Positions 7,259 through 34,579 of a stretch of 64,000 nucleotides of DNA are shown piece by piece. The stretch's first letter is position 1, and each line of letters begins with the position of its first letter. The position numbers and the translations under genes are program-made. The DNA lies in NCBI RefSeq assembly GCF_008704795.1, contig NZ_CP023690.1:8318501-8382500 (forward strand), in the 5' to 3' direction. The notes beneath the pieces were generated by a model. That model had not been told where the DNA came from and searched no databases. It saw only the letters and a list, made by a program, of their open reading frames with translations. The DNA comes from Streptomyces spectabilis. GTDB lineage: Bacteria; Actinomycetota; Actinomycetes; Streptomycetales; Streptomycetaceae.

Positions 7259-7935
7259 CCGCCACCGGCCTGCCCGCCGGATACGAGCTGATCGACCTCG
7301 TCACCCCGGCCGTGGAGGAGGACGAGCAGGACCGCGCCCTGGCCCCCGTCGGCGAGACCACGGTCACCCTGCTGCGGCGCGAGACCCGGATCGGGCTCGC
7401 CCGGGGCACCGTGCGGCGCGTGGCCGGCGCGGAGCCGGGCCGCACCGGTCACGACATCCCGCTGATCTGTGTGGTCCAGACGCATCCGGAGACCGATGTG
7501 CGCTGGTCGCGCCTGGTGATCGATCTGTCCCCCTCGCCCGGCGCGGTCGTGGCGGACATGTCGCCCACGCTCGTCGACGGCGAGAGCCCCGTGGAGCTGG
7601 AGACCACGTTGGGCGCGGGCCTCAGCTTCAACGTGGCCGCCTCCGGGCTCGGCGCGCAGCTGTCCCCGCAGGTCACCCGGCGCAAGACGGTGTACTGCCC
7701 GCGCATCACGTCCTCCGGCGTCGGATTCACCACCGCCTACTGGGACTTCAGGACATCCGACCGCGCCTTCCTGCACGTCAACGAGGAGCTGCGGCTGCTC
7801 GTCTCGGCCCCGGCGGACACGCCGGTGGAGGCCGCGGTGACCCTGCGCGCCCGCATCGTCCCCAAGGGCCTCGGCCGGGTGATCCGCCTGACGGGCAAGC
7901 TCGGCGGCGTCGAGGCGCGCTGCCGCCTCGCGTGA
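7252..7935 (+). CDS. Unknown protein coupled to the CHAT gene
   Basis: A 227-residue protein starting at GTG 7252 inside the last codons of the CHAT gene, a 7-base overlap that suggests translational coupling. No signal peptide, membrane segment or known motif is visible. The sequence alternates short hydrophobic and polar stretches (for example HDIPLICVVQTH and SGVGFTTAYWDF), suggesting a beta-rich fold. Because it is coupled to a CHAT protease-like gene it may be its substrate, regulator or effector; this is inference from position only. The LacI regulator converges on it with a 13-base gap. Confidence 0.75.
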   Translation: MLTATGLPAGYELIDLVTPAVEEDEQDRALAPVGETTVTLLRRETRIGLARGTVRRVAGAEPGRTGHDIPLICVVQTHPETDVRWSRLVIDLSPSPGAVVADMSPTLVDGESPVELETTLGAGLSFNVAASGLGAQLSPQVTRRKTVYCPRITSSGVGFTTAYWDFRTSDRAFLHVNEELRLLVSAPADTPVEAAVTLRARIVPKGLGRVIRLTGKLGGVEARCRLA

Positions 7936-7948
7936 CCGCGCGGACGCC

Positions 7949-9007
7949 TCACCCCGCCGCGCGCGCCGCGCCCGTGCTCTCCCGCTCGATCAGCGTCGGC
8001 AGCGGCACCTGCACCGTGCCCGCGGGACCGTCGTCGAGCAGGCCGAGGAGCTCGCGCGCGGCCGTCCGGCCGAACGACACCGTGTCCCGGGACAGGGCGG
8101 TCAGCCACGGGTGCACCATGCGGCACAGGGCCGAGTCCTCCCAGGCCACGACCGACACGTCGGCGGGCACGGCGAAGCCGAGCGAGGCCGCGGCCGCCAC
8201 GCCCGCGACGGCCATCACGTCGTTGTCGTAGACGAGGGCCGTCGGCGGCGCCGCCGAGCGCAGCACCCGGCGGGTCACGGCGGCGCCCTCGGCGTCCGAG
8301 TAGTCGGTGGTGACCGACCGCACCCCGTTCAGGCCCCGGCGCTCGGCCTCGGCCCGCAGCGTGCGTACGCGGCGCTCGGTGTGCGCGAGGCCGGGGAGCC
8401 CGGCGATGTGCACGATGCGGCGGTGCCCGAGCGCGTGCAGATGGCCGACGACGGACGCCATCGCGCCCGCGTCGTCGGCCCACACGGTCGAGAGCCCCGC
8501 GCGCGGCGGCCGGTCGGGGTCGGGCACGCCGCCGGTGACCACCGCGGGAAGGCCCAGCTCCTCGAGGAGCGCGGGCCGCGGGTCGTCGGTGCGCGGGTCC
8601 ACGACGAGGACGCCGTCGACCCGGTGCTCCGCCCACCACCGCCGGTAGGCCGCGCACTCCGCCTCGACGTCCTCCACCACCTGGAAGAGCAGGCCCAGTT
8701 GGCGCTCGGCCAGGACCTCCTGGATGCCCGAGATCAGCTGCAGGAAGAACGAGTCGACGCCGAGCGTGGCGGCGGGTCTCGCCACCACCAGGCCGACCGT
8801 GGCCGCGCCCTCGCCCGACAGGGCGCGCGCCGCCGTGCTGGGCCGCCAGCCCAGCTGCTCGGCGACCCTGCGCACCCGGTCACGGGTGACCTCGGAGACC
8901 CCGGGCCTGTCGTTGAGCGCGAAGGAGACGGCGCTCTCGGAGACCCCCGCACGCCGGGCGATGTCCTTCATGGTCGGCCGGCGAGCCGGTGACCGCTTGC
9001 CTTGCAC
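7949..9007 (-). CDS. LacI-family transcriptional regulator of the glycan locus
   Basis: A 352-residue repressor. The LacI helix-turn-helix is at residues 13-32 (MKDIARRAGVSESAVSFALN), followed by the hinge with its AARALSG motif. A periplasmic-binding-like sugar-sensing domain fills the rest. An internal ATG at residue 13 is a possible alternative start. It is divergent from the ABC binding-protein gene, and two LacI-type half-symmetric sites lie between them at 9061-9098. It is therefore the likely repressor of the uptake and glycosidase genes 9313-17041, relieved by a mannose-containing or related oligosaccharide. The inducer is inferred from the enzymes only. Confidence 0.9.
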   Translation of the reverse strand: MQGKRSPARRPTMKDIARRAGVSESAVSFALNDRPGVSEVTRDRVRRVAEQLGWRPSTAARALSGEGAATVGLVVARPAATLGVDSFFLQLISGIQEVLAERQLGLLFQVVEDVEAECAAYRRWWAEHRVDGVLVVDPRTDDPRPALLEELGLPAVVTGGVPDPDRPPRAGLSTVWADDAGAMASVVGHLHALGHRRIVHIAGLPGLAHTERRVRTLRAEAERRGLNGVRSVTTDYSDAEGAAVTRRVLRSAAPPTALVYDNDVMAVAGVAAAASLGFAVPADVSVVAWEDSALCRMVHPWLTALSRDTVSFGRTAARELLGLLDDGPAGTVQVPLPTLIERESTGAARAAG

Positions 9008-9060
9008 CCGTTGCCCCTTTCCGCGTGCGGAGTGCCCGATGCACCCCGGCCGCGCAGGTA

Positions 9061-9111
9061 CTAATGCGCTTGAGCTAGCACACCCTAAAGCGCATTAGCT
9101 GTTGGTGACAA
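9061..9111. promoter_or_regulatory. LacI operators and divergent promoters
   Basis: Two 14-base LacI-type sites, CTAATGCGCTTGAG (9061-9074) and CTAAAGCGCATTAG (9085-9098), have centres 24 bases apart. Their outer halves form a perfect 11-bp inverted repeat. A plus promoter fits TTGAGC (9070-9075), 17 bases, CATTAG (9093-9098). A minus promoter fits TTGTCA (complement of 9106-9111), 18 bases, TAGGGT (complement of 9082-9087). Repressor bound here would block both. The rest of the 305-base gap (9008-9312) shows no gene. Confidence 0.7.
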
Positions 9112-9312
9112 GGTTTTCAACCAACTGCTCTGACCTGCGAGTTAGCGAGGCGGCACGGCCTCGGAGAAGACGAACCGACACCAATCCATTGACTTTTCAC
9201 CGGAACTCCATGCAGGGTCTGCCTCGGTGCGATTCTGCGACACAAAGTGGTTCGCCACCGCTGCCGGTGGCCCGCGCCGCCATACGCCGGGCCGAGCAAA
9301 GGAGCCGTTCAC

Positions 9313-10617
9313 GTGCGTCATTCCCGGATATTCCGCAGCCCCCGCAGGGCGGTCCCCGCGGCCGCCGCCGTCGCCTCCCTGCTGGCCCTGAGCGCCTGCG
9401 GCGGCGGTGACGACGGCGGCTCGACCGACGCCTCCGGCAAGGTCGAGGGCAAGATCACCTTCCAGACCTGGAACCTGAAGGCGAACTTCAAGTCGTACTT
9501 CGAGGGCCTGGTCGACGACTTCGAGGAGAAGTACCCGGGCACCGAGGTCAAGTGGGTCGACCAGCCCGGCGAGGGCTACGCCGACAAGATCAGCGCGGAC
9601 GCCGCGGGGGGCACCCTGCCCGACGTCGTGAACGTCTCGCCGGACCTGGTGGCACCGCTCGCCAAGGCGGGCATCGCCCTCGACCTCGACCAGGCGGCGG
9701 GCAAGTACGAGAAGGAGTATCTGCCGGGCGCCTGGAAGAGCCACCAGGTCCCGGGCGTGCAGGGCACGTTCGCCTTCCCCTGGTACCTGAACACCGGGCC
9801 GCTGTTCTACAACAAGCGGCTGTTCAAGGAGGCGGGCCTGGACGCGGGCAAGCCGCCGAAGACGTACGACCAGCTCTTCGACGACGCCCTGGAGATCGCG
9901 GACAAGAGCGACGGCGACATCGCCACGCTCGCCAACGTCCCCACCATCGAGGACTTCGGCCGCTACGGCGTCCCGCTGATGAACAAGGAAGGCACCGGCT
10001 TCACCTTCAACGACGCCAAGGGCGTCGAACTGCTCACGAAGTACAAGAAGCTGTACGACGCCAAGGCCCTGGACGGGCAGGCCCTGACCGCGACGCCCGA
10101 GTCGACCGGCAAGAAGTTCCTCACCGAGGCCGTCGCGATGAACCCGGGCAGCGCCCTGGACCTGGAGAAGTTCAAGAAGGACGCCCCGGCCCTCTACAAG
10201 AACATCGGCATCACGCCGCAGATCAGCTCCACCGGCAAGGACAACATGTACGTGATGGGCGTGATGGTGAACAAGCGCACCAAGCAGACGCCCGCCGCCG
10301 TCGCCTTCGCGCACTTCGTCACCGACGCACAGCGCCAGATGTCCTTCGCCAAGAAGGTCGCGATCTTCCCGAGCACCAAGGGCTCCCTGGACGACCCGTA
10401 CTTCACCAAGGCGGACGGCACGGACGAGACGCGCGTGCGCATCGCCGCCGCCAAGTCCCTGAAGACCGCGGTGAACTACACCCCCGTGCTGTTCAGCGAG
10501 CAGATGAAGGTGGCGCTCCGCAACTCCGTCGCCAAGGCGCTGCAGGGCAAGGACAGTCCCGAGGAAGCGCTTGACAACGCTGTCAAGCAGTGTGACCGAC
10601 TGCTCCAGCAGAGCTGA
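9313..10617 (+). CDS. Sugar ABC transporter substrate-binding lipoprotein (CUT1 type)
   Basis: A 434-residue extracellular lipoprotein. A Sec signal ends in the lipobox LSAC with Cys29, then a Gly/Asp linker and a family 1 solute-binding fold beginning KITFQTWNLKANFK. GTG 9313 is preceded by AAGGAG at 9298-9303. It heads an operon with two permeases and two glycosidases under the LacI operators. No ATPase gene is in the cluster; Streptomyces importers of this type commonly share the multi-sugar ATPase MsiK, so that is assumed here. Ligand is probably an oligosaccharide containing mannose, from the downstream GH38 enzyme. Confidence 0.88.
   Translation: MRHSRIFRSPRRAVPAAAAVASLLALSACGGGDDGGSTDASGKVEGKITFQTWNLKANFKSYFEGLVDDFEEKYPGTEVKWVDQPGEGYADKISADAAGGTLPDVVNVSPDLVAPLAKAGIALDLDQAAGKYEKEYLPGAWKSHQVPGVQGTFAFPWYLNTGPLFYNKRLFKEAGLDAGKPPKTYDQLFDDALEIADKSDGDIATLANVPTIEDFGRYGVPLMNKEGTGFTFNDAKGVELLTKYKKLYDAKALDGQALTATPESTGKKFLTEAVAMNPGSALDLEKFKKDAPALYKNIGITPQISSTGKDNMYVMGVMVNKRTKQTPAAVAFAHFVTDAQRQMSFAKKVAIFPSTKGSLDDPYFTKADGTDETRVRIAAAKSLKTAVNYTPVLFSEQMKVALRNSVAKALQGKDSPEEALDNAVKQCDRLLQQS
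10569..10588 (+). promoter_or_regulatory. Perfect hairpin near the 3' end of the binding-protein gene
   Basis: GCTTGACA and TGTCAAGC form a perfect 8-bp stem with a 4-base ACGC loop, 30 bases before the stop codon. Hairpins between a binding-protein gene and its permeases are known to raise the level of binding-protein message over the rest. Here it lies inside coding sequence, so a role is only inferred. Confidence 0.4.
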
Positions 10618-10640
10618 CCCAGCGACCAGGAACGTCAGCC

Positions 10641-11615
10641 ATGACCGCCATGAAGACCCCCAGTCCCGCCACGTCCCCGGCGCCGCCCGCCGGGGGCGCG
10701 CCCAGGGCGACGAAGGCCGCGCGCGCCCCTCGCGCCGGCCGCCGCGTCCGGAGGCAGCTGCCGACCAGCCCCTGGCTGTTCGCTGCCCCCGGCCTCGTGA
10801 TCGTCGGCTGGTTCATCCTCTATCCGTTCGTCAGCACGGTGCTCAACTCCTTCACCGACAAACGGCAGTTGGTCGAGGGTAAGTACGTGGGCCTCGCCAA
10901 CTTCCGCGAGCTGCTGCACGACGACATGTTCTGGATCGGCCTGCGCAACAGCACCCTGTACGTCCTCGTGGTCGTACCCGCGCTCGTCATCCTGCCGCTG
11001 CTGCTCGCGATGCTCGTGCAGAAGCAGATCCCGGGCATCACGTTCTTCCGGTCCGCCTTCTACACGCCGGTGGTCGCCTCCATCGTCGTCGTCGGCCTGA
11101 TCTGGGTGTGGATGCTCGACGAGCGGGGCCTGGTGAACGCCGTCCTGGAGGCGGTCGGCGCGGGCAAGGTCGGCTTCCTCAGCGACCAGTGGCTGCTGCT
11201 GTTCTCCGCCATGGCCGTCACGGTCTGGAAGGGCCTCGGCTACTACATGATCATTTATCTGGCGGCGCTCGCGAACGTCCCGCGCGAACTGCACGAGGCC
11301 GCCGCCGTCGACGGCGCGGGACCGGTCCGCCGCTTCGTCAGCGTCACGATGCCCGCCGTGCGCTCCACCATGGTCCTGGTCGCCGCGCTGTCCTCCGTGG
11401 CCGCGTTCAAGGTCTTCTCCGAGGTGTATCTGATGGCGGGGCCGACCGGCGGGCCCGCGGGTGAGGACACCACGCTCGTGATGCTCGTGCAGCGCACCGG
11501 CACCGGCCTGACCGGCCGCGTCGGCTACGCCTCCGCGATCTCCGTCGTCATCTTCGTCGTCACCGTCGCGCTGATGCTGCTCGTGCTGCGCGCGGACCGG
11601 AAGGAGAACCGATGA
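10641..11615 (+). CDS. Sugar ABC transporter permease 1
   Basis: A 324-residue inner-membrane permease of the MalF/UgpA type. A basic, Pro/Ala-rich N-terminal tail of about 40 residues precedes six membrane segments. The ATPase-contact EAA loop is visible as ELHEAAAVDGAGPVRRFVSVTMP. It lies 23 bases after the binding-protein gene and overlaps permease 2 by four bases (ATGA). With permease 2 it forms the channel for the oligosaccharide delivered by the upstream lipoprotein. ATG 10650 is an alternative start. Confidence 0.88.
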   Translation: MTAMKTPSPATSPAPPAGGAPRATKAARAPRAGRRVRRQLPTSPWLFAAPGLVIVGWFILYPFVSTVLNSFTDKRQLVEGKYVGLANFRELLHDDMFWIGLRNSTLYVLVVVPALVILPLLLAMLVQKQIPGITFFRSAFYTPVVASIVVVGLIWVWMLDERGLVNAVLEAVGAGKVGFLSDQWLLLFSAMAVTVWKGLGYYMIIYLAALANVPRELHEAAAVDGAGPVRRFVSVTMPAVRSTMVLVAALSSVAAFKVFSEVYLMAGPTGGPAGEDTTLVMLVQRTGTGLTGRVGYASAISVVIFVVTVALMLLVLRADRKENR

Positions 11616-12523
11616 CGACCACGACCCCGGACACCGAAGCGGTCCGTGCCGAGGCCCCGCGGCCGCGGAAGTGGCGGCCCACGGACGAGAACGGGCGCCG
11701 CATGCGCGTGTGGGAGCTCGCCCTGCGCTACGTCCTGCTGCTCGCCGTCCTCGCCCTGATGATCGGCCCGTTCCTGTGGCAGCTTTCGACGTCCCTCAAG
11801 GGGCCGCACGAGAACATCTTCAGTTCCCCGCCCAAGTTCCTGCCGTCCGACCCGACCCTGCACAACTACGAACGCGTCGCCGACACCATCCCGGTGTGGG
11901 ACTACGCGTTCAACTCCCTGAAGGTCGCGGCGGCGAACGTCGTCACCAACTGCGTGGGCGCGGCCCTCGCCGGATACGCCCTCGCCCGGCTGCGCTACCG
12001 CGGCCGCAAGGCGGCGACGCTCGTGTTCATCCTGGCCATGCTCGTGCCCGTGGAGGGCATCATCATCGCCCAGTTCACGACGATGCGGGACCTCGGCCTC
12101 AACAACACCCTCGTCGGCGTGCTGCTGCCCGGCTGCGTCTCGGCGCTCAACGTGCTGCTGATGCGCAACGCCTTCCTCAACGTCCCGTACGAGATCGAGG
12201 AGGCCGCGTTCGTCGACGGGGCGAACGTGTGGCAGCGGTTCTTCCGCATCGCGCTGCCCGCCGTGAAGGGCACCCTCGCCGTGGTGGCCATCTTCGCCTT
12301 CATGGGCGCATGGGACGACTTCCTGTGGCCCCTGATCGTCCTGAGCGACCCCGACAAGTTCACCCTGACCATCGGCCTCAACTATCTGCACGGCACCTTC
12401 GCCAACGACGAGCGCCTCGTCGCCGCGGGCACGGTGATCGCCGTGCTGCCGCTGATCGTGCTCTTCGCCTGTCTCCAGCGGTACTTCTTCCGCGGGGTCG
12501 GAGAGGGCGCCGTCAAGGGCTGA
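11612..12523 (+). CDS. Sugar ABC transporter permease 2
   Basis: A 303-residue permease of the MalG type with six membrane segments, following a charged N-terminal tail of about 35 residues. The EAA loop reads EIEEAAFVDGANVWQRFFRIALP. The start overlaps the stop of permease 1 (ATGA), so the two subunits are made together. The next gene starts 50 bases downstream. It is expected to pair with permease 1 and a shared cytoplasmic ATPase. Confidence 0.88.
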   Translation: MTTTTPDTEAVRAEAPRPRKWRPTDENGRRMRVWELALRYVLLLAVLALMIGPFLWQLSTSLKGPHENIFSSPPKFLPSDPTLHNYERVADTIPVWDYAFNSLKVAAANVVTNCVGAALAGYALARLRYRGRKAATLVFILAMLVPVEGIIIAQFTTMRDLGLNNTLVGVLLPGCVSALNVLLMRNAFLNVPYEIEEAAFVDGANVWQRFFRIALPAVKGTLAVVAIFAFMGAWDDFLWPLIVLSDPDKFTLTIGLNYLHGTFANDERLVAAGTVIAVLPLIVLFACLQRYFFRGVGEGAVKG

Positions 12524-12573
12524 CCCCGCCGCGCCGATCACCCGCCCCATCGCCACCAGAACCAGGATCCGCC

Positions 12574-13845
12574 TTGACGTCAGACGACCTGCCCGGCACG
12601 GGCAGCGCCCCCGCCGCGACGCCCCGCTTCGGCGCCAACTACACCCCCAGCGAAGGGTGGTTCCACCACTGGCTCGACTTCGACCTGGACTCCGTACGCC
12701 GTGACCTCGACGCCATCGCCTCGCTCGGCCTCGACCACGTCCGGGTGTTCCCGATCTGGCCGTACTTCCAGCCCAACCGCACCCTGATCCGGCCGCGCGC
12801 CGTCGAGCAGCTCGTCGCGCTCGCCGACGCCGCCGCCGAGCGCGGGCTCGACGTCAACGTCGACGGCCTCCAGGGCCATCTGTCCAGCTTCGACTTCCTG
12901 CCCGCGTGGACGCAGACCTGGCACCGGCGCAACCTCTTCACCGACCCGGACGTGATCTCGGGCCAGCGGGAGTATCTGCGCACCCTCGCCGCCGCGCTCG
13001 CCGACCGGCCCAACTTCATCGGCATGACCATCGGCAACGAGATCAACCAGTTCGCCGCCGGGCCGCACCCCGACCCCGACCGGATCACCCAGGAGCAGGC
13101 CGAGGCCTGGCTGCGGCAGGTCCTCGCCGCGTGCGAGGAGGGGGCGCCCGGACGCCTCCACCTGCACGCCGAGTACGACGCGGCCTGGTACCAGGACGAC
13201 CAGCCGTTCACGCCCGCGCAGGCCGCGCGGCTCGGGTCCGTCACCGCCGTGCACTCGTGGGTGTTCAACGGCACCGCGCAGCGCCACGGGCGCGACGGGG
13301 CCGCGACCGGGCAGCACGCCGCGTACCTCATCGAGCTGTCCAAGGCCTGGGCCGTGGACCCGCACCGGCCCGTCTGGCTCCAGGAGGTCGGCGCGCCCGC
13401 CCCGCTCATCCCGGCGGCGGACGCGGCGGCGTTCACCGAGACGACCGTGACGGCCGCGCTCGACTGCGCTGACGTGTGGGGCGTCACCTGGTGGTGCTCC
13501 CACGACGTCTCGCGCACCCTCGCGGACTTCCCGGAGCTGGAGTACAGCCTGGGGCTGCTGACGAACGAGGGTCGGGTGAAGCCCGCCGGTGCCGCCCTCG
13601 CCCGGCTCGCCAAGGAGCGCTGGGAGGTGCCCGCGGCGCGGAGCACGGCCGTGGTGGTGGACGTCGGGCCCGGCGCGGGGCGGCGGGCCCGGTGCGGGCC
13701 CGGCGGGGACGTCTTCGAGGCCTTCGCCCGGCTTGCCGGGGAAGGGGTGCGGCCCGCGCTGGTACTGGCCGAACGGGTCTCCGACCACGGCCATCTCGCT
13801 GAGCGCGGCATCACGGAGGTGGTCCACCCGTCCGACGTCCTCTGA
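12574..13845 (+). CDS. GH5-like glycoside hydrolase, cytoplasmic
   Basis: A 423-residue TIM-barrel glycosidase. Motifs include a barrel start FGANYTPSEGWFHHWL and an acid/base glutamate in GNEIN (Glu156). A second glutamate in WLQEVG (Glu271) fits the nucleophile of clan GH-A enzymes. No signal peptide is present, so it should act on imported oligosaccharides. TTG 12574 is used because it lies after AGGA and no better in-frame start is seen nearby. The last 60 residues are weakly conserved in character. Context with an importer and a GH38 mannosidase suggests a mannosidase-type activity, but GH5-like proteins have many substrates. Confidence 0.8.
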   Translation: MTSDDLPGTGSAPAATPRFGANYTPSEGWFHHWLDFDLDSVRRDLDAIASLGLDHVRVFPIWPYFQPNRTLIRPRAVEQLVALADAAAERGLDVNVDGLQGHLSSFDFLPAWTQTWHRRNLFTDPDVISGQREYLRTLAAALADRPNFIGMTIGNEINQFAAGPHPDPDRITQEQAEAWLRQVLAACEEGAPGRLHLHAEYDAAWYQDDQPFTPAQAARLGSVTAVHSWVFNGTAQRHGRDGAATGQHAAYLIELSKAWAVDPHRPVWLQEVGAPAPLIPAADAAAFTETTVTAALDCADVWGVTWWCSHDVSRTLADFPELEYSLGLLTNEGRVKPAGAALARLAKERWEVPAARSTAVVVDVGPGAGRRARCGPGGDVFEAFARLAGEGVRPALVLAERVSDHGHLAERGITEVVHPSDVL

Positions 13846-13895
13846 TCGTCCCCGTCCCCCGTCGGCCCTCGTGGGACGCCCCTGACCCGCCCTTT

Positions 13896-13980
13896 CCCGA
13901 ACAAGGGGGCTCCGCCCCCTTGGACCCCGTTTTCGGCGCTCCGCGCCTCGTCCTCAAACGCCGGACGGGCTGAAAGATCG
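13896..13980. repeat. Intergenic repeat with GGGGGC hairpin
   Basis: AAGGGGGC (13903-13910), TCC loop, GCCCCCTT (13914-13921) is a perfect 8-bp hairpin. It is followed by an element rich in GGCGCTCCGCGCC and CAAACGCCGGACGGGCTG. From memory, this combination recurs between genes in many Streptomyces genomes. Here it separates the GH5-like and GH38 genes and may act as a terminator or attenuator. Confidence 0.6.
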
Positions 13981-14023
13981 CCCCTGCCTCAGCCACTCAC
14001 GCGCGACCCATGGAGACACCCTC

Positions 14024-26459: not shown

Positions 26460-26774
26460 GTGAGAGTCGCCCTGCACACCAAGGTCCGCGCGGACCGGAT
26501 CGACGCCTACGAGGCCGCCCACCGGGAGGTCCCCGCCGAGCTGGCCACCGCGATCCACGCGGCGGGCGCCACGTCGTGGACGATCTGGCGCAGCGGGGCC
26601 GATCTGTTCCACGTCGTGGAGTGCGCGGACTACGCGCGCCTGCTCGCGGAGCTGGAGCGGCTGCCGGTGAACACGGCCTGGCAGGCCCGCATGGCCGAGC
26701 TGCTCGACGTGGTCCACGACTACTCCGCCGAGGGCGCGGCCGCGGGCCTCCCCATCGTGTGGGAGCTGCCGTGA
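26460..26774 (+). CDS. L-rhamnose/L-fucose mutarotase family protein
   Basis: A 104-residue dimeric ferredoxin-like alpha/beta barrel protein of the L-rhamnose mutarotase family. Motifs include YEAAHREVPAEL near the N-terminus and NTAWQARMAELLD near the C-terminus. Enzymes of this family interconvert the alpha and beta anomers of 6-deoxy sugars. GTG 26460 follows AAGGAGGGGC, a strong ribosome site, and its stop overlaps the lactonase start. In this locus it most likely supplies the correct L-fucose anomer to the dehydrogenase. Confidence 0.88.
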   Translation: MRVALHTKVRADRIDAYEAAHREVPAELATAIHAAGATSWTIWRSGADLFHVVECADYARLLAELERLPVNTAWQARMAELLDVVHDYSAEGAAAGLPIVWELP

Positions 26775-27718
26775 CGCGGGCGGACGAGGTGCGAACTGCC
26801 GCTACGGAGACGATCGTCGACGCCCACCACCACGTCTGGGACCTCGCCGTGCGCGACCAGGAGTGGATCACCGGTCCCGCGATGGCCCCGATCCGGCGCG
26901 GCTTCTCGCTCGCCGACCTCGCGCCGCACGCCCGCGCGCACGGCGTCACCGCCACCGTCCTCGTGCAGACCGTCACCGTGCCCGAGGAGACCCCGGAACT
27001 CCTCGCCCTCGCGGCCGGCAGCGAGCTGGTCGCCGGGGTGGTCGGCTGGGCCGACCTCACCCGGCCCGGCGTCGCCGACACCCTGGCCGCGCTCCGCGAA
27101 CTCCCCGGCGGGCGCCACCTGGTGGGCATCCGCCACCAGGTGCAGGGCGACCCCGACCCCGAGTGGCTGCTGCGCGCGGACACGCGGCGCGGACTCGCCG
27201 CCGTGGCGGACGCCGGACTCGTGTACGACCTCGTGGTGCGCCCGGACCAGCTGCCGCTGTGCGCCGAGGCGGCCGCGCGCCTGCCCCAGGTCACCTTCGT
27301 CCTCGACCACCTGGGCAAGCCGCCCGTGGCGTCCGGCGCCCTCGCACCCTGGGCGTCGTCGCTGCGCGTCCTGGCGTCCCTGCCGAACACCGTCTGCAAG
27401 CTGTCGGGCCTGGTGACCGAGGCCGACTGGGCGACCTGGACGGTGGCGGACCTGCGGCCCTACGCGGACACGGCCCTGGAGGCCTTCGGCCCCGGAAGGC
27501 TCATGTTCGGCTCGGACTGGCCGGTGTGCGCGCTCGCCGCCTCGTACGGCCAAGTCGTCGACGCGGCACGGGCGTTGGCGGGGGAACTGAGCCCCGCCGA
27601 GCGTACGCAGGTGTTCGCGGGCACGGCCCGGCGCGTGTACGGCCTGCCGGAGCGCGCCCGTGCCCCGGGCGGCCTCAGCTCTCCTGGTCCGGCGGGCCCG
27701 CCGGGACCGAGGGCGTGA
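26771..27718 (+). CDS. Amidohydrolase, probable L-fucono-lactonase
   Basis: A 315-residue TIM-barrel amidohydrolase. The metal-binding start VDAHHHVWD (His19-His21) is typical of the COG3618 lactonase group. LDHLGKPP in the middle and MFGSDWPVC near the end complete the pattern. It should hydrolyse L-fucono-lactone to L-fuconate, between the aldo-keto reductase and FucD steps. It overlaps the mutarotase stop. The 3' end runs 44 bases into the convergent small acidic gene. The last 25 residues are Pro/Gly-rich and lie outside the fold. Confidence 0.88.
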   Translation: MTRADEVRTAATETIVDAHHHVWDLAVRDQEWITGPAMAPIRRGFSLADLAPHARAHGVTATVLVQTVTVPEETPELLALAAGSELVAGVVGWADLTRPGVADTLAALRELPGGRHLVGIRHQVQGDPDPEWLLRADTRRGLAAVADAGLVYDLVVRPDQLPLCAEAAARLPQVTFVLDHLGKPPVASGALAPWASSLRVLASLPNTVCKLSGLVTEADWATWTVADLRPYADTALEAFGPGRLMFGSDWPVCALAASYGQVVDAARALAGELSPAERTQVFAGTARRVYGLPERARAPGGLSSPGPAGPPGPRA

Positions 27719-27893
27719 CCCCGGCGGGACCCTCCGGCGGCAGGGCCTCCTCCTCGGGGAACTCCTCGGCCTTGGGCTTGTGCGTGCCGCGCGGTGCCCC
27801 CGCCCAGACGCCGAGGTCGTCGAGTTCGTCGGGCTCGACAGGGGTGACGGGAACGCGGTCGGCGGGGGTGGACGGTGCGTCAGGATCGGTCAT
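27675..27893 (-). CDS. Small acidic Pro-rich protein, last gene of the CHAT operon
   Basis: A 72-residue, acidic, probably unstructured protein rich in Pro, Glu and Asp (EPDELDDLGVWAGAP, EEFPEEEALPPEGP). ATG 27893 is preceded by GAGGAG on the coding strand, so the upstream in-frame Met at 27926 is not needed. It overlaps the DUF6338 gene by 14 bases and the convergent lactonase by 44 bases. No known motif. Its place in a CHAT operon suggests a substrate, chaperone-like partner or inhibitor, but that is inference. Confidence 0.65.
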   Translation of the reverse strand: MTDPDAPSTPADRVPVTPVEPDELDDLGVWAGAPRGTHKPKAEEFPEEEALPPEGPAGVTPSVPAGPPDQES

Positions 27894-28533
27894 CGGTGTC
27901 TCCTCGGTTCCGGCGGCGCGGTTCATGGATCTCCACGAGGTCCAGGTCGCTCGCTCGTACGTAGAGGCCGCCCGTCTGGGGCAGCCGAGGGCCGAACGAG
28001 CCGTCGGCCTCCATGCGGTACTGGGATTCCAGGAAGAGGTCGCCGGGCTGCGGATAGGCGGAGGCGCGCGAACGCGTTCCGTACCAGCCTCCCGCCCAGC
28101 CGCCGTTCTTGAGGCGCACGCGGACGTAACACGCCCCGCGGTCCTGGAACAGGGCGTCCCACGCCGTGGGGGTGCGCTCGTGCAGGGCCGCGCGCCGTCG
28201 CCGCACCCAGCGGGCCTCGAGCCAGGCGAGCAGGGCGGGACAGACGACGGCGAGCAGCAGCAGACACAGGCCGAACACGCGCGGATGGTCGGCGACGCCC
28301 GCCAGCGGCGTCCTGCCGCCGCCCCGCAGCAGCCGGACGAGCTGGGGTCCGGCGGCGATCAGGTACGCCGTGTCGAGCAGGACACCCACCCCGAGGGCGC
28401 GCAGGATCCGGTTGCCGCTCTCCTGCTCGGCCTCCCGGATGCCGAGGAAGCCCTCCCTGGCGAAGAGGTACGTGGTCCCGGGCAGGACGAGGAGGACCAC
28501 GATCGCCAGTTGCTGGACGGTGCCCGGCGTCAT
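27880..28533 (-). CDS. DUF6338 family membrane protein
   Basis: A 217-residue protein with three hydrophobic segments (about residues 5-22, 40-60 and 80-105). A cytoplasmic domain follows, with TAWDALFQDRGACYVRVRLKNGGWAGGWYG and YPQPGDLFLESQYRMEADGSFG. This second half matches what I recall of DUF6338, a family of unknown function. ATG 28533 overlaps the stop of the TPR gene by four bases. It could anchor the CHAT/TPR proteins at the membrane; I see no catalytic motif. Confidence 0.8.
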   Translation of the reverse strand: MTPGTVQQLAIVVLLVLPGTTYLFAREGFLGIREAEQESGNRILRALGVGVLLDTAYLIAAGPQLVRLLRGGGRTPLAGVADHPRVFGLCLLLLAVVCPALLAWLEARWVRRRRAALHERTPTAWDALFQDRGACYVRVRLKNGGWAGGWYGTRSRASAYPQPGDLFLESQYRMEADGSFGPRLPQTGGLYVRASDLDLVEIHEPRRRNRGDTDDRS

Positions 28534-29627
28534 CCACGCCCCCTTCGCCGTGTCCGTCGGCCACGTCCGCCGCCCCGGCCACCGTCGCCGCGCCGGGCTT
28601 CCCACGCCACACCCTGCGCCAGTGTCAGCAGATCGTCCAGGTCGCCCAGGTGCGCGTGCAGCTTCACCCACTCGCCCTGCGCCCGGCCGACCCGCGACAG
28701 TTCCGCCGCGGCCCGCCCGAGCAGCCCGGCCGTGGCGGCCTCGTTGTCCTGCGCCCGGGCGAGCCGGGCGAGCACCAGCAGGAGGAAGGCGGCGAGCATC
28801 CGCTGCGGTTCCCGGCCGCGCCGCTCCAGGAGGGCGAGCGCGCGCGAGAAGCAGGTCGTCGCGCGGTCGGTCCGCTCCCGCCGCAGGCTCTCCACCCCGT
28901 CGGCGACGAGGGCGTGCACCTCCGACAGCAGACCGGGGCCGAGGGCCGGTGCGCCCGCCCCGCCGGTGAGCTGCCGGTCCGCCTCCCCCAGGAGCCGTAC
29001 CGTCTCGCGCCGCATCGTCCGGGCCCCACCATGCGACTCGGTGAGGGCGAGGACCTGGTCCAGCACGCCGACGGCGTCCGCCGCCCGCCCCCGGTCGACG
29101 AGGGCGGCCCCGAGGAGGCGGCAGGCGCGCGCCGTCTGCGGGCGCAGGCCCGCGGCTTCGAAGACGGAGCGGCAGTCCTGGAGGAAGGCCAGCTCGCGCT
29201 CGCCCGTGGGCTGCCCGGACTCCAGCGCGAGCAAGGCGTTGCCCCCGGCCTTGACCAGCGTCTCCCGCGCGTCGGCCCGGCGGCAGTGCGTCCAGCTCTC
29301 CAGGTGCGCGGCGAGTCCCTGCGCGAGGTCACCGGCCCGGCTGTGGGCCACGCCCAGGTTCAGCCACACGTGCCCGAGGAGGGCCGCGTCGTCCGGGGCC
29401 TGTTCGGTGGCGATCCGCAGGGCCCGCCGACCGGCGCCGACCGCCTCCTCGTAGCGCTCCTCCTCGGCGTAGGCCAGGCAGAGGCAGCCGAGCAGACAGC
29501 CCACGACGTCGGGGGTGGTCGCGTCCCGGAACCCGGGGAGTTCGACGATCTGGAGCCGCGCGATCCGCGCGTACGCGGGCAACCGCTCCAGGGTCGCGAA
29601 GTCCAGTCCGGGAGGTGGCGTCGTCAT
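28530..29627 (-). CDS. TPR-like helical protein of the CHAT operon
   Basis: A 365-residue cytoplasmic, alpha-helical protein. Repeats with a TPR character are visible at about 35-110 (CLCLAYAEEERYEEAVGAGRRAL, WLNLGVAHSRAGDLAQGLAAHLE) and again to about 310. It ends in a highly basic Gly/Arg tail (GDGGRGGGRGRRTRRRGRG), which could bind nucleic acid or acidic partners such as the last protein of this operon. ATG 29627 overlaps the CHAT stop, and its own stop overlaps the DUF6338 start, so the operon is tightly coupled. Confidence 0.82.
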   Translation of the reverse strand: MTTPPPGLDFATLERLPAYARIARLQIVELPGFRDATTPDVVGCLLGCLCLAYAEEERYEEAVGAGRRALRIATEQAPDDAALLGHVWLNLGVAHSRAGDLAQGLAAHLESWTHCRRADARETLVKAGGNALLALESGQPTGERELAFLQDCRSVFEAAGLRPQTARACRLLGAALVDRGRAADAVGVLDQVLALTESHGGARTMRRETVRLLGEADRQLTGGAGAPALGPGLLSEVHALVADGVESLRRERTDRATTCFSRALALLERRGREPQRMLAAFLLLVLARLARAQDNEAATAGLLGRAAAELSRVGRAQGEWVKLHAHLGDLDDLLTLAQGVAWEARRGDGGRGGGRGRRTRRRGRG

Positions 29628-32600
29628 GTGCCCACCAGGGCGAAGGGCGCCCACAAGTAGGGGTGCGCGAAAGGCCGTTCGGGTACGCCGTCGGACGTCA
29701 GCCGGTGGCGGACCTCGGCGGGCAGCTCCTCCAGGGCGAGCAGTTCGGGCACGGTCGCGGACCGCAGCCACAGCTGGGCTCCCCGCAGGGCGCTCGCGGG
29801 AGCGGGCGGTCCGGGCGGTGGCGGCGCGCCGGGGCGCCGCTCGGTGTCGAGGCCGAGCAGCCGCCGGTAGCAGGCGACCATGAGCAGGACGGCGGCGGTG
29901 TCGCGCGCCTCCCACTGCGTGCACACCACCCCGGCCCCGCCCGCGAGCATGATGCCCGTGGGCAGGCCGATCGCCTCGTCGGGCAGCCGGGCGTCCACGA
30001 GCCCCGACTCGCAGGCGGACAGCGTCACGAGCCGGGCGCGCTCCAGCGGCCGGGGCCGGGCGTCGAGCAGATCGGCCAGGGTGACGCGGCCGCCGTCCAG
30101 GTCGAGCCCGGAGGCGAGCGGGTCGTCCGGGTCGTACGCGCCGTGGCAGGCCAGGTGCACGTGGGTGGCGCGGGCGAGCTCGGCGAGCAGGTCCCGGGTC
30201 ACGTGGTGCCCCTCGCCCGCGGCGGCGAACAGGCGGGTCACCGCCCGCGCCTCCTGCGCGGCGAGGATGCCGCTGTCCGCGCCGGAGTCGGACGCCGCGA
30301 CGAGGACGGGGACGGAGGGCGCGGCGGCGGCCCGCCGCCGCGCCGCGAGGAGCAGCCGCACCGACGGGGCGTAGGCCACCGTGTGCGTGGCGAGCAGCGG
30401 TTCACCGGTGGTGGGCAGCGTCGCGGCGTGCAGCGGAAGGTGGGCGAGGGGACCGCAGGCCACCACGACCGCGCCCGTCGCCGCCGGGCCGAGCGCGTCG
30501 GCGAGCGGCGCGACCAGACGGCTGCCGAGCCGGGCGAGCAGGGGACGCAGGCCGCGCCCTGCGGCCCGCGCGGCCCCGGCGACCTCCTGGGCCAGGGCGG
30601 TGGCCTCCTCGGCGGTGAGCGGCGACCGGACGGCTTCGAGCCCCGGCCCCGCGTCGCCCTCGTGCCGGACGATCAGGGACACGCTCCCGGCCGGGGCGCA
30701 GGCGACGAAGCACAGCGGCTCCCCGGGGCGGGCCGCGGCCCGGACGTCGTCCCACGTCGTGTGCCTCAGGAACGTCTCCATGCCGGGGAGCTCCTGGATC
30801 CGGGCGACGGCGGCCGCGAGCCCGGCGCGGGCCTCCTCCAGGAGTCCGCCCACCTCGTACTCGGCGGCCTCGACGCGCCGTCCGTCGCCCGCGGCGGACC
30901 GCGGTCTGCCCAGCTCGCGGTTGCGGGATTCCAGGGCCTGCACGGCCTCGGCGGCCCGCACATACGCGGCGTGCGCCTCGGGGGCCGTCCCGGACACCTC
31001 CTTGAGCTGGGCGTGGTCCGGCGAGAGCGCCAGGTTGAAGGTGCGCGTCCGGCCCCGTTCCAGACACAGCACCGCGTCCTGGAGCCGCCCCGCGCGGGCG
31101 AGCGCGTACGCGGCCCGCTGGTGCAGGTCGCCCGCCGACCTCAGGTGCCGCTCCCGCGAGGCGCTCACCAGGCAGTACCGGAACATCTCGTCGTCGGCCG
31201 ACACTGCCTGCCCGTACGCGGTGCTCGCCCGGCTCCAGTCGCCCCGGGCGGCGACGGCGTCGCCGAGGCCCGTCGACACGTCGCGCAGGATCTCAGGACG
31301 GTCGTGCGCCTGGGCCGCGGCCGTGCCGAGGGCGGTCACCTCCAGCTCCCGCAGCTCGGCGTCCCGGCTCGGGTCGAGCGCCCGGCAGCGCCGGGCGGCG
31401 TCCGCCACCTGGCTGTGGACGAGGGCGAGTTCCGCCGCGGTCGGCAGCCCTGCGTAGGCGTCGACGGCCTCCCGCACCTGGCGCAGACCCTGGTGGGCCG
31501 TCGCCACCGGATCGTCCGTCGCGCCCCGCTCCGCCTGCTGGAGCAGCGCGAAGCCGAGCTTGACCGTGCTGCGGGCCCACAGGAGCGGAGTGGTGCCCCT
31601 GGGGCGGTCCGCGAGCGCGGCCCGGTGCAGGCGCACCTCCTCGTCGTACTCCTCCAGGAGGTGCGCGACCAGGGCGAGTTTGTCGTACGTGCTGGACGCT
31701 TCGCGGCGGTCCCCGACGCGTTCGTAGACGCGGAGCGCCCGCAGCGCGTGCTCGCGGGCGCGCAGGAGGTTGTCCCGCCTGTCCCCGCGGATCCGCTTGC
31801 ACAGCGAGACCGCGAGCCGGGCCTGGGTGTTGGCCCACTGCTCGGGGTCGGTCCGCTCCGACTCGACCTCGTTGAGCCGCTCGTACAGGCGGATGACCTG
31901 TTCCTGGTTCACGGCGGGATCGCCCCGCAGCCGCACGTTGTAGGCCCCCGCGAGGAGGCTCTGGGCGTCGCACCACACGTGCTTGGCGTCGGCGGGGTCC
32001 AGGCGCTCGACGACCGGCTTCAGGAGGCCGATGGCCTCCTCGGTCTCCTCCGGGTCCGACTGGGTGCCCCGCTCGATGAGCACGATCGCCAGCTCGGTCC
32101 GCGCTCGCGCCCACGTCCGCGCGTCCGTCTGCGGATCCACCACTTCGAGGGCGGTGCGCAGATGGCGCATCGCGTGCTCCTGGTCGGCGCGGTGGTCGCC
32201 GACGGGCCGCCTGCCGTAGGCGCGCCCCACTTCGAGGTGCGCGATGGCCCGGGCCGGGGCGTGCTCGTCCCGGGTGAGGCCGCGGGCCGCGCGGAGCAGC
32301 AGGCCGATGCCGCGTTCGACGTCGACCGCCTCGTCGTCGCGGTGCGTCGCGCACAGGGCCTGGCCCAGGCACATCCGGAGGGTGGTCCGCAGTTCGGGAT
32401 GGTCCTCGCCGCCGCCGAGCAGGTCCAGGCCCCGCTCGGCAAGACGGACCAGCTCGTCGCCGGCCGGCCCGTGCGTCACGGACCTGCCGAAGCCGGACGG
32501 CCACCGCGCCATGATCCGGTCGAGGATCCGCAGCGCCTCGGCCGGTGGCGGTCCGCTCCCGGCCTTGGCGGTGAAGGAGCCCGACTCCGGCGCGGGGACG

Positions 32601-33001
32601 CCGTCCGAGACGTACGGGCGCAGGAAGACGGGCGCCGCCTCGAAGGGCAGGGAGACGACGCCGTACTCCTCCGCCTCCTCGGCGCTGACCGGCCCGAGCC
32701 GGTCGAGGAGGGCGTCCACATAGGTCTTCCGGTTCGCCTCGTCGGCGGCGGCCGACGAGTCCTGCGGGCAGAAGAAGAACAGCTGCGGCAGGGAGCGGCT
32801 GCCGTACACGAGCAGCGGCACCCCCTGGCAGGTCCTGGCCGCGCACCCGGGGCACGTGACCGCCGGTATCTCGCCGCTGATCACCTTCTCGACCAGATCG
32901 GGGCGTGCGTCGGCGTCGACGGCCAGGTACGTCTCGTCGTCCGCCGCCGCGCCGCAGTCCTGGCAGTCCCATCGGAACCGCAGGACGGACGAGTAGTCCA
33001 T
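29624..33001 (-). CDS. CpXC-TPR-CHAT caspase-like protein
   Basis: A 1125-residue protein with three parts. The N-terminus is a CpXC-type zinc domain: Cys13-x2-Cys16 and Cys50-x2-Cys53. TPR-like helices fill about 190-700. The C-terminus is a CHAT domain with His953 (LACHGAYDPDDPLASGL) and Cys997 (TLSACESG), both catalytic residues of the caspase-like fold. ATG 33001 is chosen because MDYSSVLRF leads straight into the zinc domain; an upstream Met at 33109 is Pro/Arg-rich. It is the first gene of a four-gene overlapping operon. Confidence 0.88.
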   Translation of the reverse strand: MDYSSVLRFRWDCQDCGAAADDETYLAVDADARPDLVEKVISGEIPAVTCPGCAARTCQGVPLLVYGSRSLPQLFFFCPQDSSAAADEANRKTYVDALLDRLGPVSAEEAEEYGVVSLPFEAAPVFLRPYVSDGVPAPESGSFTAKAGSGPPPAEALRILDRIMARWPSGFGRSVTHGPAGDELVRLAERGLDLLGGGEDHPELRTTLRMCLGQALCATHRDDEAVDVERGIGLLLRAARGLTRDEHAPARAIAHLEVGRAYGRRPVGDHRADQEHAMRHLRTALEVVDPQTDARTWARARTELAIVLIERGTQSDPEETEEAIGLLKPVVERLDPADAKHVWCDAQSLLAGAYNVRLRGDPAVNQEQVIRLYERLNEVESERTDPEQWANTQARLAVSLCKRIRGDRRDNLLRAREHALRALRVYERVGDRREASSTYDKLALVAHLLEEYDEEVRLHRAALADRPRGTTPLLWARSTVKLGFALLQQAERGATDDPVATAHQGLRQVREAVDAYAGLPTAAELALVHSQVADAARRCRALDPSRDAELRELEVTALGTAAAQAHDRPEILRDVSTGLGDAVAARGDWSRASTAYGQAVSADDEMFRYCLVSASRERHLRSAGDLHQRAAYALARAGRLQDAVLCLERGRTRTFNLALSPDHAQLKEVSGTAPEAHAAYVRAAEAVQALESRNRELGRPRSAAGDGRRVEAAEYEVGGLLEEARAGLAAAVARIQELPGMETFLRHTTWDDVRAAARPGEPLCFVACAPAGSVSLIVRHEGDAGPGLEAVRSPLTAEEATALAQEVAGAARAAGRGLRPLLARLGSRLVAPLADALGPAATGAVVVACGPLAHLPLHAATLPTTGEPLLATHTVAYAPSVRLLLAARRRAAAAPSVPVLVAASDSGADSGILAAQEARAVTRLFAAAGEGHHVTRDLLAELARATHVHLACHGAYDPDDPLASGLDLDGGRVTLADLLDARPRPLERARLVTLSACESGLVDARLPDEAIGLPTGIMLAGGAGVVCTQWEARDTAAVLLMVACYRRLLGLDTERRPGAPPPPGPPAPASALRGAQLWLRSATVPELLALEELPAEVRHRLTSDGVPERPFAHPYLWAPFALVGT

Positions 33002-33127
33002 CGTTCCCCCCGGGAGGCGCCCGCCGCGCACCCCCTGGCGCGGGCCCTTCCTCTCCTCTGGAGGGCACGGTAGGGGCCGGGCGCCGAGGGTGTCCACGCC
33101 GCGCGACAAGGCGGGCGTGCCGGAGTA

Positions 33128-34579
33128 CTATCCGCGCTCCTGCTCCCGGCCCCGCACCGCGTCGAGCCGGGTCGGCGGCAGGAACTCCCGTACGTACGTG
33201 CGCTCCCAGCACGCGCCCGTCGCGCGCAGCTCGCGCCACGTCGTGTAGCGGTAGCGGTAGAGGCGGGCCCGCACGTACCGCGGCGGCCGGTCGGGGAAGG
33301 GGCAGCGGCGCAGCAGGCGCAGGGTGTCCCGGTCGCCTTCGAGGAGGCGCTCCACCAGCGGTCCGAACCAGGCGCGCGCGTACGCGGGGGAGAGCCCGGC
33401 GAACCACATCAGCCAGTCGAGCCGCAGATGGTAGGGCGCGAACTGGCGGGGCCAGTGGCGCGGGTCGCCCGGCTTGCCCTTGAACTCGTACTCCCGCCAT
33501 TCGGAGTCCCGCCGGGGCGTGTCGTCCGCGGTGCCCTCGATCACCACCTCCTGGCGCACCCGGCTGACGCTGCCGAACGCGCCGTAGGTGTTGACCAGGT
33601 GCAGCGGGTCGAAGGAGGTGTTCATGACCTGCCGCCGGGACAGCATGTTGCGCGCCGGGCGGTGGCTCAGGCCGAGCAGCGCGACGGTGACGGCGATGAC
33701 CAGGACCTCGTACCAGAGCGGGGCGGCGGCGAGGTGCGTCGGCGGGTTCGCCGCGTCGCCGAGGAACAGGCGGAAGTCGACGGCGGACAGGGCGAGCACG
33801 ACCGTCAGCCAGTTCAGCCAGGAGAAGTTCCCGGAGAGCACCAGCCACAGCTGGGTGACGACCATCAGACAGGCCGCGCCCGTCGCCACCGGCTGCGGGG
33901 TGAAGAGGAGGAACGGGACCGCGAGTTGGGTCACGTGGTTGGCCGCGGCCTCCACGCGGTGCAGCGGGCCCGGGAGCCGGTGGAAGAACCAGCTCAGCGG
34001 CCCCGGCATCGGTTGGGTCTCGTGGTGGAAGTACAGACAGGTGAGCCTGCGCCAGCAGGCGTCCCCGCGCATCTTGATCAGACCCGCCCCGAACTCGACG
34101 CGGAAGAGGACCCACCGCAGCAGGAACAGGACCAGGACCGGTGGCCCGACGTCGTCGCCCGCCAGGAACACGGCGAGGAAGCCGACTTCGAGGAGCAGCG
34201 ACTCCCAGCCGAAGGCGTACCAGGTCTGTCCCACGTTCACGACGGACTGGTACAGCACCCACGGCACCAGCCAGAGCGCCATCGCGGCCCCCAGCGGAAG
34301 CAGGCCGTCCACGCCCGCGAGGAGCGCCGCGGAGACCGCGCAGCCCGCCCAGGCGCAGCCCGCGAAGAACCGGTCCGAGTAGTGCAGCTGGAACAGGCTC
34401 GGCGCCGCGCGGAACGGCACCCGCGCCACGTACCGGGGCACCGGCAGCATGCCGCGCTCGCCGATGAGCGCGCGGAACTGGAGCGCCGCGCCGAGGAAGG
34501 CGACCAGGTAGACCGCGGCGAGCGCCCGCTGGAAGACCAGGCGGCTCAGCCAGTACCCGTCCGCCGTGAACCACTCCAC
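33128..34579 (-). CDS. Lipase maturation factor family membrane protein
   Basis: A 483-residue polytopic membrane protein of the LMF1-like family. About eight membrane segments fill residues 10-310, with family motifs WYAFGWESLLLE, LLRWVLFRVEFGAGLIKMRGD and NTSFDPLHLVNTYGAFGSV. The soluble C-terminal part has WREYEFKGKPGDPRHWPRQFAPYHLRLDWLMWFA. In vertebrates LMF1 helps fold dimeric lipases in the ER; bacterial members have no settled function. ATG 34579. The gene stands alone: the CHAT operon is upstream in a separate unit and the two-component genes precede it with a 45-base gap. Confidence 0.9.
   Translation of the reverse strand: MEWFTADGYWLSRLVFQRALAAVYLVAFLGAALQFRALIGERGMLPVPRYVARVPFRAAPSLFQLHYSDRFFAGCAWAGCAVSAALLAGVDGLLPLGAAMALWLVPWVLYQSVVNVGQTWYAFGWESLLLEVGFLAVFLAGDDVGPPVLVLFLLRWVLFRVEFGAGLIKMRGDACWRRLTCLYFHHETQPMPGPLSWFFHRLPGPLHRVEAAANHVTQLAVPFLLFTPQPVATGAACLMVVTQLWLVLSGNFSWLNWLTVVLALSAVDFRLFLGDAANPPTHLAAAPLWYEVLVIAVTVALLGLSHRPARNMLSRRQVMNTSFDPLHLVNTYGAFGSVSRVRQEVVIEGTADDTPRRDSEWREYEFKGKPGDPRHWPRQFAPYHLRLDWLMWFAGLSPAYARAWFGPLVERLLEGDRDTLRLLRRCPFPDRPPRYVRARLYRYRYTTWRELRATGACWERTYVREFLPPTRLDAVRGREQERG

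Follow-up and report, generated by a model that had tools for sequence, protein, structure and literature searches.

In the type III-E Craspase, the protease Csx29 cuts a co-encoded partner, Csx30. Type IV Thoeris pairs a TIR protein with a caspase-like protease, and the caspase is the killer; in bacterial gasdermin-protease pairs, the protease frees a small membrane-acting protein. Protease-nuclease pairs and canu are described as protease-gated effector pairs that have repeatedly been acquired by unrelated immune systems, and caspase loci with TPR genes are described alongside them (PMC12799240). EACC1-caspase and EACC2-caspase systems have a small membrane or constant component beside the caspase gene, with one transmembrane (TM) helix in EACC1 (PMC7159879, PMC8195603). 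In Pseudomonas stutzeri, a predicted operon contains a DUF6338 gene and three expressed small Pro-rich proteins, which the passage describing them states are not conserved beyond P. stutzeri (PMC10433244). Here we describe a four-gene operon of Streptomyces spectabilis that encodes a CHAT protease, a TPR protein, a DUF6338 (PF19865) membrane protein, and a small Pro-rich protein, and that lies in a window of 64,000 nucleotides (nt), the whole stretch of DNA analysed (contig NZ_CP023690.1, positions 8,318,501 to 8,382,500). Comparative genomics shows that the system formed by the CHAT protease, DUF6338, and the small protein is conserved and mobile; its best reading is a protease-controlled membrane effector that may act in conflict.

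The operon resembles Csx29 in combining TPRs with a CHAT domain that has a His/Cys dyad. In particular, residues 821-1036 of the CHAT protein match solved structures of the Csx29 kind (8d9g, 7x8a, and others) with an E value of ~1.6e-7, and the score against the NCBIfam Csx29 model NF041237 is 54.3 bits, well below the cut-off of 300. The partners differ from Csx30, being DUF6338 and a protein with a GYxP motif, and Pfam matched none of the four genes to a Cas or Csx30-like family, with no scan of the window for CRISPR arrays or cas genes. With type IV Thoeris the operon shares a caspase-superfamily protease as its enzyme, and pairs of TIR and caspase genes lie beside DUF6338 on two plasmids (L132, L135); unlike type IV Thoeris, the operon has CHAT rather than Peptidase_C14 and no TIR match among its four genes. 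It differs from the protease-nuclease pairs in that the partner is a membrane protein together with a small protein, with no MBL-fold nuclease match among the four genes. In the EACC systems the caspase is constant, whereas in DUF6338 loci the protease partner varies; moreover, DUF6338, a PF19865 match, combines ~three hydrophobic segments with a soluble part, in contrast to EACC1, and no MoxR/vWA or EACC component was matched by Pfam among the four window genes. The logic proposed below is that of the gasdermin pairs, with no gasdermin match in the operon. The P. stutzeri operon can be compared by description only: no protease is named in the passage that describes it, while the synteny and the GYxP motif are widespread among the loci analysed here. 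PADLOC returned a weak BovA match for the CHAT part only (E 1e-4), the other three proteins of the operon having none. In the open-access literature, other licences and other names lying outside the search, DUF6338 was found in the P. stutzeri paper alone, with no link to CHAT, and PF19865 was not found.

The CHAT protein contains a CpXC domain (residues 13-90; Pfam E 2.1e-7) and a CHAT domain (PF12770, residues 820-1124; Pfam E 1.8e-40, 139.7 bits versus a cut-off of 24), and has a TPR_12 match below the Pfam cut-off (Table 1). The CHAT dyad, His953 and Cys997, was numbered correctly in a preliminary description of the locus and is kept in DUF6338-linked CHATs, with His present in 65/65 and Cys in 64/65, the lone exception being a truncated remnant. 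The TPR protein matches Pfam TPR_12 (E 6e-11). DUF6338 matches its Pfam profile with E 1.6e-60 (204.7 bits versus a cut-off of 26.5) over profile positions 2-203 of 205; simple hydropathy indicates ~three hydrophobic segments within the first 107 residues, followed by a conserved soluble C-terminal part, and a PDB profile search for DUF6338 gave no meaningful match. The junction of the CHAT and TPR genes (29624-29627) and that of the TPR and DUF6338 genes (28530-28533) are both ATGA, and the DUF6338 gene and the small gene overlap by 14 bases (27880-27893); all four genes lie where the preliminary description placed them. The nearest named proteins are from Streptomyces, the CHAT protein sharing 98% identity with one from S. 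spectabilis. Codon-position GC is typical of coding DNA in all four genes, with third-position values of 0.877-0.95. For the small gene the codon score is low (9.5, computed separately), and the gene caller omitted it, probably because it overlaps the convergent amidohydrolase frame by 44 bases; we accept it as genuine because it is conserved in other genomes. Its product has 83 aa if an in-frame upstream ATG at 27926 is the start. Rfam and tRNA searches of the window gave no match, and a scan of 27500-33300 found no promoter or terminator.

Table 1. Positions in the window of the four operon genes, the cassette that contains them, and the two flanking genes
Feature	Position	Strand	Description
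CHAT gene	29624-33001	minus	1125 aa; CpXC, TPR-like middle, and CHAT
TPR protein gene	28530-29627	minus	365 aa
DUF6338 gene (PF19865)	27880-28533	minus	217 aa
Small acidic Pro-rich protein gene	27675-27893	minus	72 aa; no Pfam match
Inserted cassette, approximate	27661-33154		similarity to relatives ends at 27549-27660 and resumes at 33155-33165
Flanking amidohydrolase	26771-27718	plus	
Flanking LMF1-type gene	33128-34579	minus	

DUF6338 genes resembling that of the window are present in 13 of 150 sampled genomes of the genus (its own included). The loci analysed comprise these genus loci and 66 from a scan of genome contigs whose pattern restricted it to the window's DUF6338 clade; with seven repeats dropped and two Streptomyces plasmids added, the test set comprises 61 loci. 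Profiles were built for CHAT from 8 seeds and for the small protein, as a hidden Markov model (HMM), from 12 seeds at loci other than those of the test set. A match to the small-protein HMM (E<1e-3) follows DUF6338 in 56 of the 60 loci with enough sequence (misses: L104, L125, L127, and L130), versus 0/60 on the opposite strand and 0/677 at random places. Of the 52 loci that extend 5 kb to each side, 48 have a CHAT domain within 5 kb of DUF6338, or 49 once Pfam is applied to L125; the nine loci with shorter flanks are excluded from this count. Among the 48, the CHAT gene is convergent in 22, on the same strand downstream in 18, on the same strand upstream in 5, and divergent in 3. The chance of finding CHAT within 5 kb of a random place is ~1%, based on the window's own 9.8-Mb genome with 8 CHAT genes (9 matches, two of which are halves of one gene). 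The four-gene grouping is not due to chance, and the preliminary description's proposal that DUF6338 and the small gene belong with CHAT is strongly borne out by their co-occurrence in other genomes. The CHAT profile missed divergent CHATs that Pfam found (L059, L061, and L125), so loci scored as CHAT-less may have one. A sample not selected on DUF6338 points the same way: 27 of 41 genomes of the window's family are CHAT-bearing (its own included), and in a search covering these 27, not the 14 CHAT-less ones, DUF6338 exceeded the cut-off in 5, and in all 5 the distance to a CHAT domain is 241-1103 bp; the DUF6338 of G057, among the five, is divergent.

Divergent DUF6338 genes of Streptomyces adjoin CHAT (L059, L061) or Peptidase_C14 (L060, caspase gene at 10804-11640). 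At L059 a small Pro-rich gene lies upstream of DUF6338, not downstream, and may be a variant. L125 has a gene of reversed order, with an N-terminal CHAT followed by TPRs (4262-8995), that overlaps DUF6338 by 4 bases. At L122 (around 9001-14004), where DUF6338 and the small gene were found with no CHAT, the opposite strand carries an OLD-like nuclease gene 2.5 kb downstream.

The small protein is a member of a family with the motif (R/K)G(Y/H)xP...EPxxxPxGPAGxS. Specifically, actinobacterial members (n=69) typically have (R/K)G(Y/F/H)xP, then EPxxxP, then GPAGxS; they are 45-84 aa long by chosen starts, contain ~15% proline, and have a median net charge of -8 (range -14 to +9). The form [GTI][YFH]xP is present in 63/69 of them (4.8 expected from shuffles), and the strict form G[YFHW]xP in 46/69 (3.0 expected). 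The window's small gene matches the family HMM with E 9e-9, being also among its training rows. The gene that follows DUF6338 on proteobacterial plasmids is likewise small and Pro-rich, with one to three GYxP. Viral contigs gave no match to DUF6338 profile A1, and a closer alignment of plasmid-type DUF6338 found 33 viral or prophage contigs, hosts not determined; in 32/33, one to three small GYxP genes follow DUF6338, versus 2/33 in an opposite-strand control. The 31 distinct viral small proteins, picked by a looser form of the motif, have 2.6 GYxP each, versus 0.05 once shuffled; with these proteins as its sole training set, a profile matches 33/69 actinobacterial small proteins at E<1, versus 0/129 random open reading frames and 1/69 shuffled sequences. 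We take the viral and actinobacterial small proteins to be one family, by position plus motif, sequence alone being no proof. A profile search of 5.8 billion proteins gave 33 relatives of the small protein, none with a Pfam domain. Eight plasmid and viral small proteins have computed net charges of -2 to +4 and still keep the GYxP motif and a Pro-rich tail; acidity is not conserved in the family and is mainly actinobacterial. We define the DUF6338-GYxP module as DUF6338 directly followed by a small Pro-rich protein with the motif, an arrangement present in the window.

A regular-expression count of GYxP downstream of DUF6338 (84/109) was set aside and replaced by the HMM test, the background in mostly GC-rich DNA being high (opposite strand 30/109, random places 246/1907). 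At four loci (L199, L207, L208, and L211), two to three tandem GYxP proteins, unlike one another, are encoded downstream of DUF6338, as if diversifying.

Together the four genes make up a single, horizontally mobile cassette. In 8 of the 11 relatives examined, taken by best LMF1 matches, the amidohydrolase and LMF1-type genes that flank the cassette are directly adjacent, leaving an empty site; two of the remaining three have another gene without a Pfam match at the site, and the 11.4 kb fetched from the third showed no amidohydrolase. The ~5.5-kb insert contains the four genes and nothing else recognisable. The cassette of L064 has the same neighbours as in the window, whereas the DNA similarity of L065 and L067 to window positions 18001-43000 is restricted to 27717-32938, and the cassette there thus sits at another site. 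Similarity of the relatives to the amidohydrolase protein ends at residue 292 of 315, and the insertion probably changed the tail of this protein. No inverted repeat with arms at both insert borders was present among the 25 of 56 pairs listed. Two other Streptomyces have other Pfam-less genes at the same site (L237, 7174-9903, 909 aa; L239, 1738-2634, 298 aa), and the site between the amidohydrolase and LMF1-type genes is possibly an insertion hotspot.

The linked proteases vary in architecture. A CpXC-TPR-CHAT protein with a separate TPR gene is the window type, found in L064-L067, while other linked CHATs have ~1,620 aa (convergent), ~1,170 aa (downstream), or ~950 aa, and 7/65 contain a hydrophobic segment within residues 1-30 (L048, L056, L081, L084, L088, L090, and L102). 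A quick tree was built from 33 linked CHAT domains and 24 others, one gene being represented twice among the latter. On this tree the linked label changes 9 times, versus 18.4 when shuffled, and is thus clustered; at least two label changes are forced by supported branches, only 12/53 inner branches being well supported, and the clade of the window is separate from the main group of linked CHATs. DUF6338 met CHAT more than once, or was lost several times. The ratio of non-synonymous to synonymous substitution rates (dN/dS) against L064 is lowest for DUF6338 (0.19), followed by CHAT (0.40), the TPR gene (0.65), and the small gene (0.69 over 64 codons). The TPR protein was matched in the four nearest cassettes, L064-L067 (in L066 partly), and in none of the 18 loci L046-L063. 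Its basic tail is present in the window and in the close relative L064 and absent in L065-L067. The suggestion that this tail binds the acidic small protein is not supported, since neither the tail, which is not kept past L064, nor the charge of the small protein is conserved. The window has a second TPR-CHAT gene (2534-7258, plus strand; 1574 aa, CHAT E 3.8e-53) with no adjoining DUF6338, overlapped by a gene for a 227-aa protein without a Pfam match (7252-7935).

Plasmid searches gave 22 records, and 17 regions were viewed. Conflict-system genes adjoin DUF6338 in 10 of the 17: CHAT (L130, L131); TIR and caspase (L132, and L135 within a Tn7-like element); type I restriction by annotation, with no GYxP gene found (L133); DUF4062, with Pfam support and no PADLOC match (L134); MBL, E1, and JAB in mutually related regions (L138, L139, and L142, the last two by annotation); and CD-NTase with a 2TM effector, a cyclic oligonucleotide-based antiphage signalling system (CBASS; L145). 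Pfam or PADLOC back the TIR, caspase, CD-NTase, 2TM, E1/JAB, and DUF4062 assignments, and PADLOC gave no match for the MBL proteins. In the other 7/17 (L136, L140, L141, L143, L144, L146, and L147) no conflict gene was recognised directly beside DUF6338; L147 has a TIR gene 3 kb off, and L136 a PemK/MazF gene 0.7 kb off. In the viral contig L205, DUF6338 is preceded by methylase, ParA-like, and SIR2 genes. On the Proteus penneri plasmid L135, the genes for DUF6338, the GYxP protein, TIR, and caspase lie in line directly after tnsE (3659-5879). The chromosome of E. coli ET210 has a TIR and caspase pair near a methyltransferase/restriction locus (L149, 2784-4158), with no DUF6338 annotated in the 8.1 kb viewed.

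As read from gene content and conservation, the cassette may be an immune (conflict) system of the abortive type with a CHAT-controlled DUF6338-GYxP membrane module, a reading that we find plausible, if short of probable. The CpXC and TPR arms, with the TPR partner, would sense an infection-linked signal, perhaps triggered by phage, and switch on the CHAT dyad. Activated CHAT would then cut a partner, most simply the small protein, which is probably disordered and is supposed to bind DUF6338 directly and restrain it; freed DUF6338 would act in the membrane, possibly by damaging it, and cause growth stop or cell death. The small protein is cast as the restraining peptide because it is Pro-rich, bears the motif, and is encoded directly behind DUF6338, and the protease as its remover because it is encoded next door. 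The cutting of a co-encoded partner is a model borrowed from Csx29 and Csx30, and the protease-gated effectors described in PMC12799240 provide a parallel for the proposed release of DUF6338. The preliminary description's regulated protease with a membrane component gains support from the linkage of CHAT and DUF6338, with the mechanism still conjectural, and the conflict role that it suggested gains support from association with TIR, caspase, CBASS, E1/JAB, and DUF4062 neighbours. Its focus on the CHAT gene shifts under the wider survey, which suggests that the DUF6338-small protein pair stays constant while the protease varies. More generally, and with greater doubt, DUF6338 and GYxP-repeat proteins could form a widespread membrane effector module of a new kind that brings its own restraining peptide. 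Phages, plasmids, and transposons would have spread this module, and unrelated immune systems would have taken it up repeatedly; in actinobacteria it would be the standard output of CHAT/C14 proteases, a gasdermin-like logic made from unrelated parts.

Several observations weigh against the immune reading. The window does not form a defence island: scanning of seven genes that flank the cassette gave sugar or general metabolism, LMF1-type, two-component, and ABC genes. The CHAT profile found no CHAT within 5 kb at L104, L122, and L127; profile searches found neither CHAT nor the small gene at L104 and L127, and no small gene at L130. The loci are interrelated, so the linkage counts are not counts of independent events, and the clustering of the linked label on the CHAT tree means that part of the linkage is inherited. 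More distant DUF6338 genes at 13 loci, representing 11 distinct places (L002/L063, L004, L008-L012, L013/L059, L015, L017, and L018), have no convincing downstream GYxP gene, nine further loci that failed to match the DUF6338 profile lying outside this count. At L063, DUF6338 lies among genes that by eye resemble haem biosynthesis, without a CHAT match. Only part of PF19865 belongs to the module, and PF19865 overall is not a conflict family. None of ten immune query proteins, a set without SIR2, matched the viral loci, and the viral contigs indicate that the DUF6338-GYxP module can exist without an adjoining protease.

Other roles for the pair have to be weighed against these data. DUF6338 and the small protein could be a membrane sensor or anchor, with the small protein relaying a signal to CHAT and CHAT acting as the effector that cuts cell proteins. 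The strong conservation of DUF6338, the lowest dN/dS in the cassette, fits a receptor, the N-terminal hydrophobic segment of seven linked CHATs would put the protease at the membrane, and in type IV Thoeris the caspase itself kills. A pure sensor, however, would have no output where the pair occurs without a recognised protease, as on 32/33 viral contigs and some plasmids, and the pair also accompanies systems with their own signal enzyme (CBASS cyclase, TIR); we regard this role as unlikely. Less likely again, the pair could work independently as a toxin-antitoxin-like or superinfection-exclusion unit that accumulates near defence genes, with CHAT only a neighbour. Such a unit would fit the 33 viral contigs, the one to three tandem small genes, and two viewed regions without an immune gene, one of 5.0 kb from a 10.5-kb Acinetobacter plasmid and one of 6.4 kb from a Klebsiella phage record. 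Hitch-hiking nevertheless leaves unexplained the 48/52 linkage with one protease family in four orientations, the 5/5 in the CHAT-bearing sample, and the clean four-gene insertion.

The cassette could also encode an ordinary regulated protease for envelope stress or development with no conflict role, as might be expected from the absence of a defence gene among the seven flanking genes scanned and from the housekeeping surroundings of some distant DUF6338 genes; the expression in culture of the three small Pro-rich proteins of the P. stutzeri DUF6338 operon agrees with this (PMC10433244). Set against it are the patchy presence in the genus (13/150 genomes), the insertion with empty sites, carriage on viral contigs, plasmids, and a Tn7-like element, and the company of TIR, caspase, CBASS, and E1/JAB genes, which make this role less likely still.

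CHAT proteins are common orphans in multicellular bacteria, and to our knowledge few CHAT partners have been identified. The operon provides a concrete two-gene partner for a group of CHAT proteins, with the short motif GYxP ... PxGPAGxS, and gene association links two unannotated families, one without any Pfam match, to bacterial immunity. Should DUF6338 be restrained by the small protein and freed by the protease, bacteria would have a further way, next to gasdermins, for a caspase-like protease to act on the membrane.

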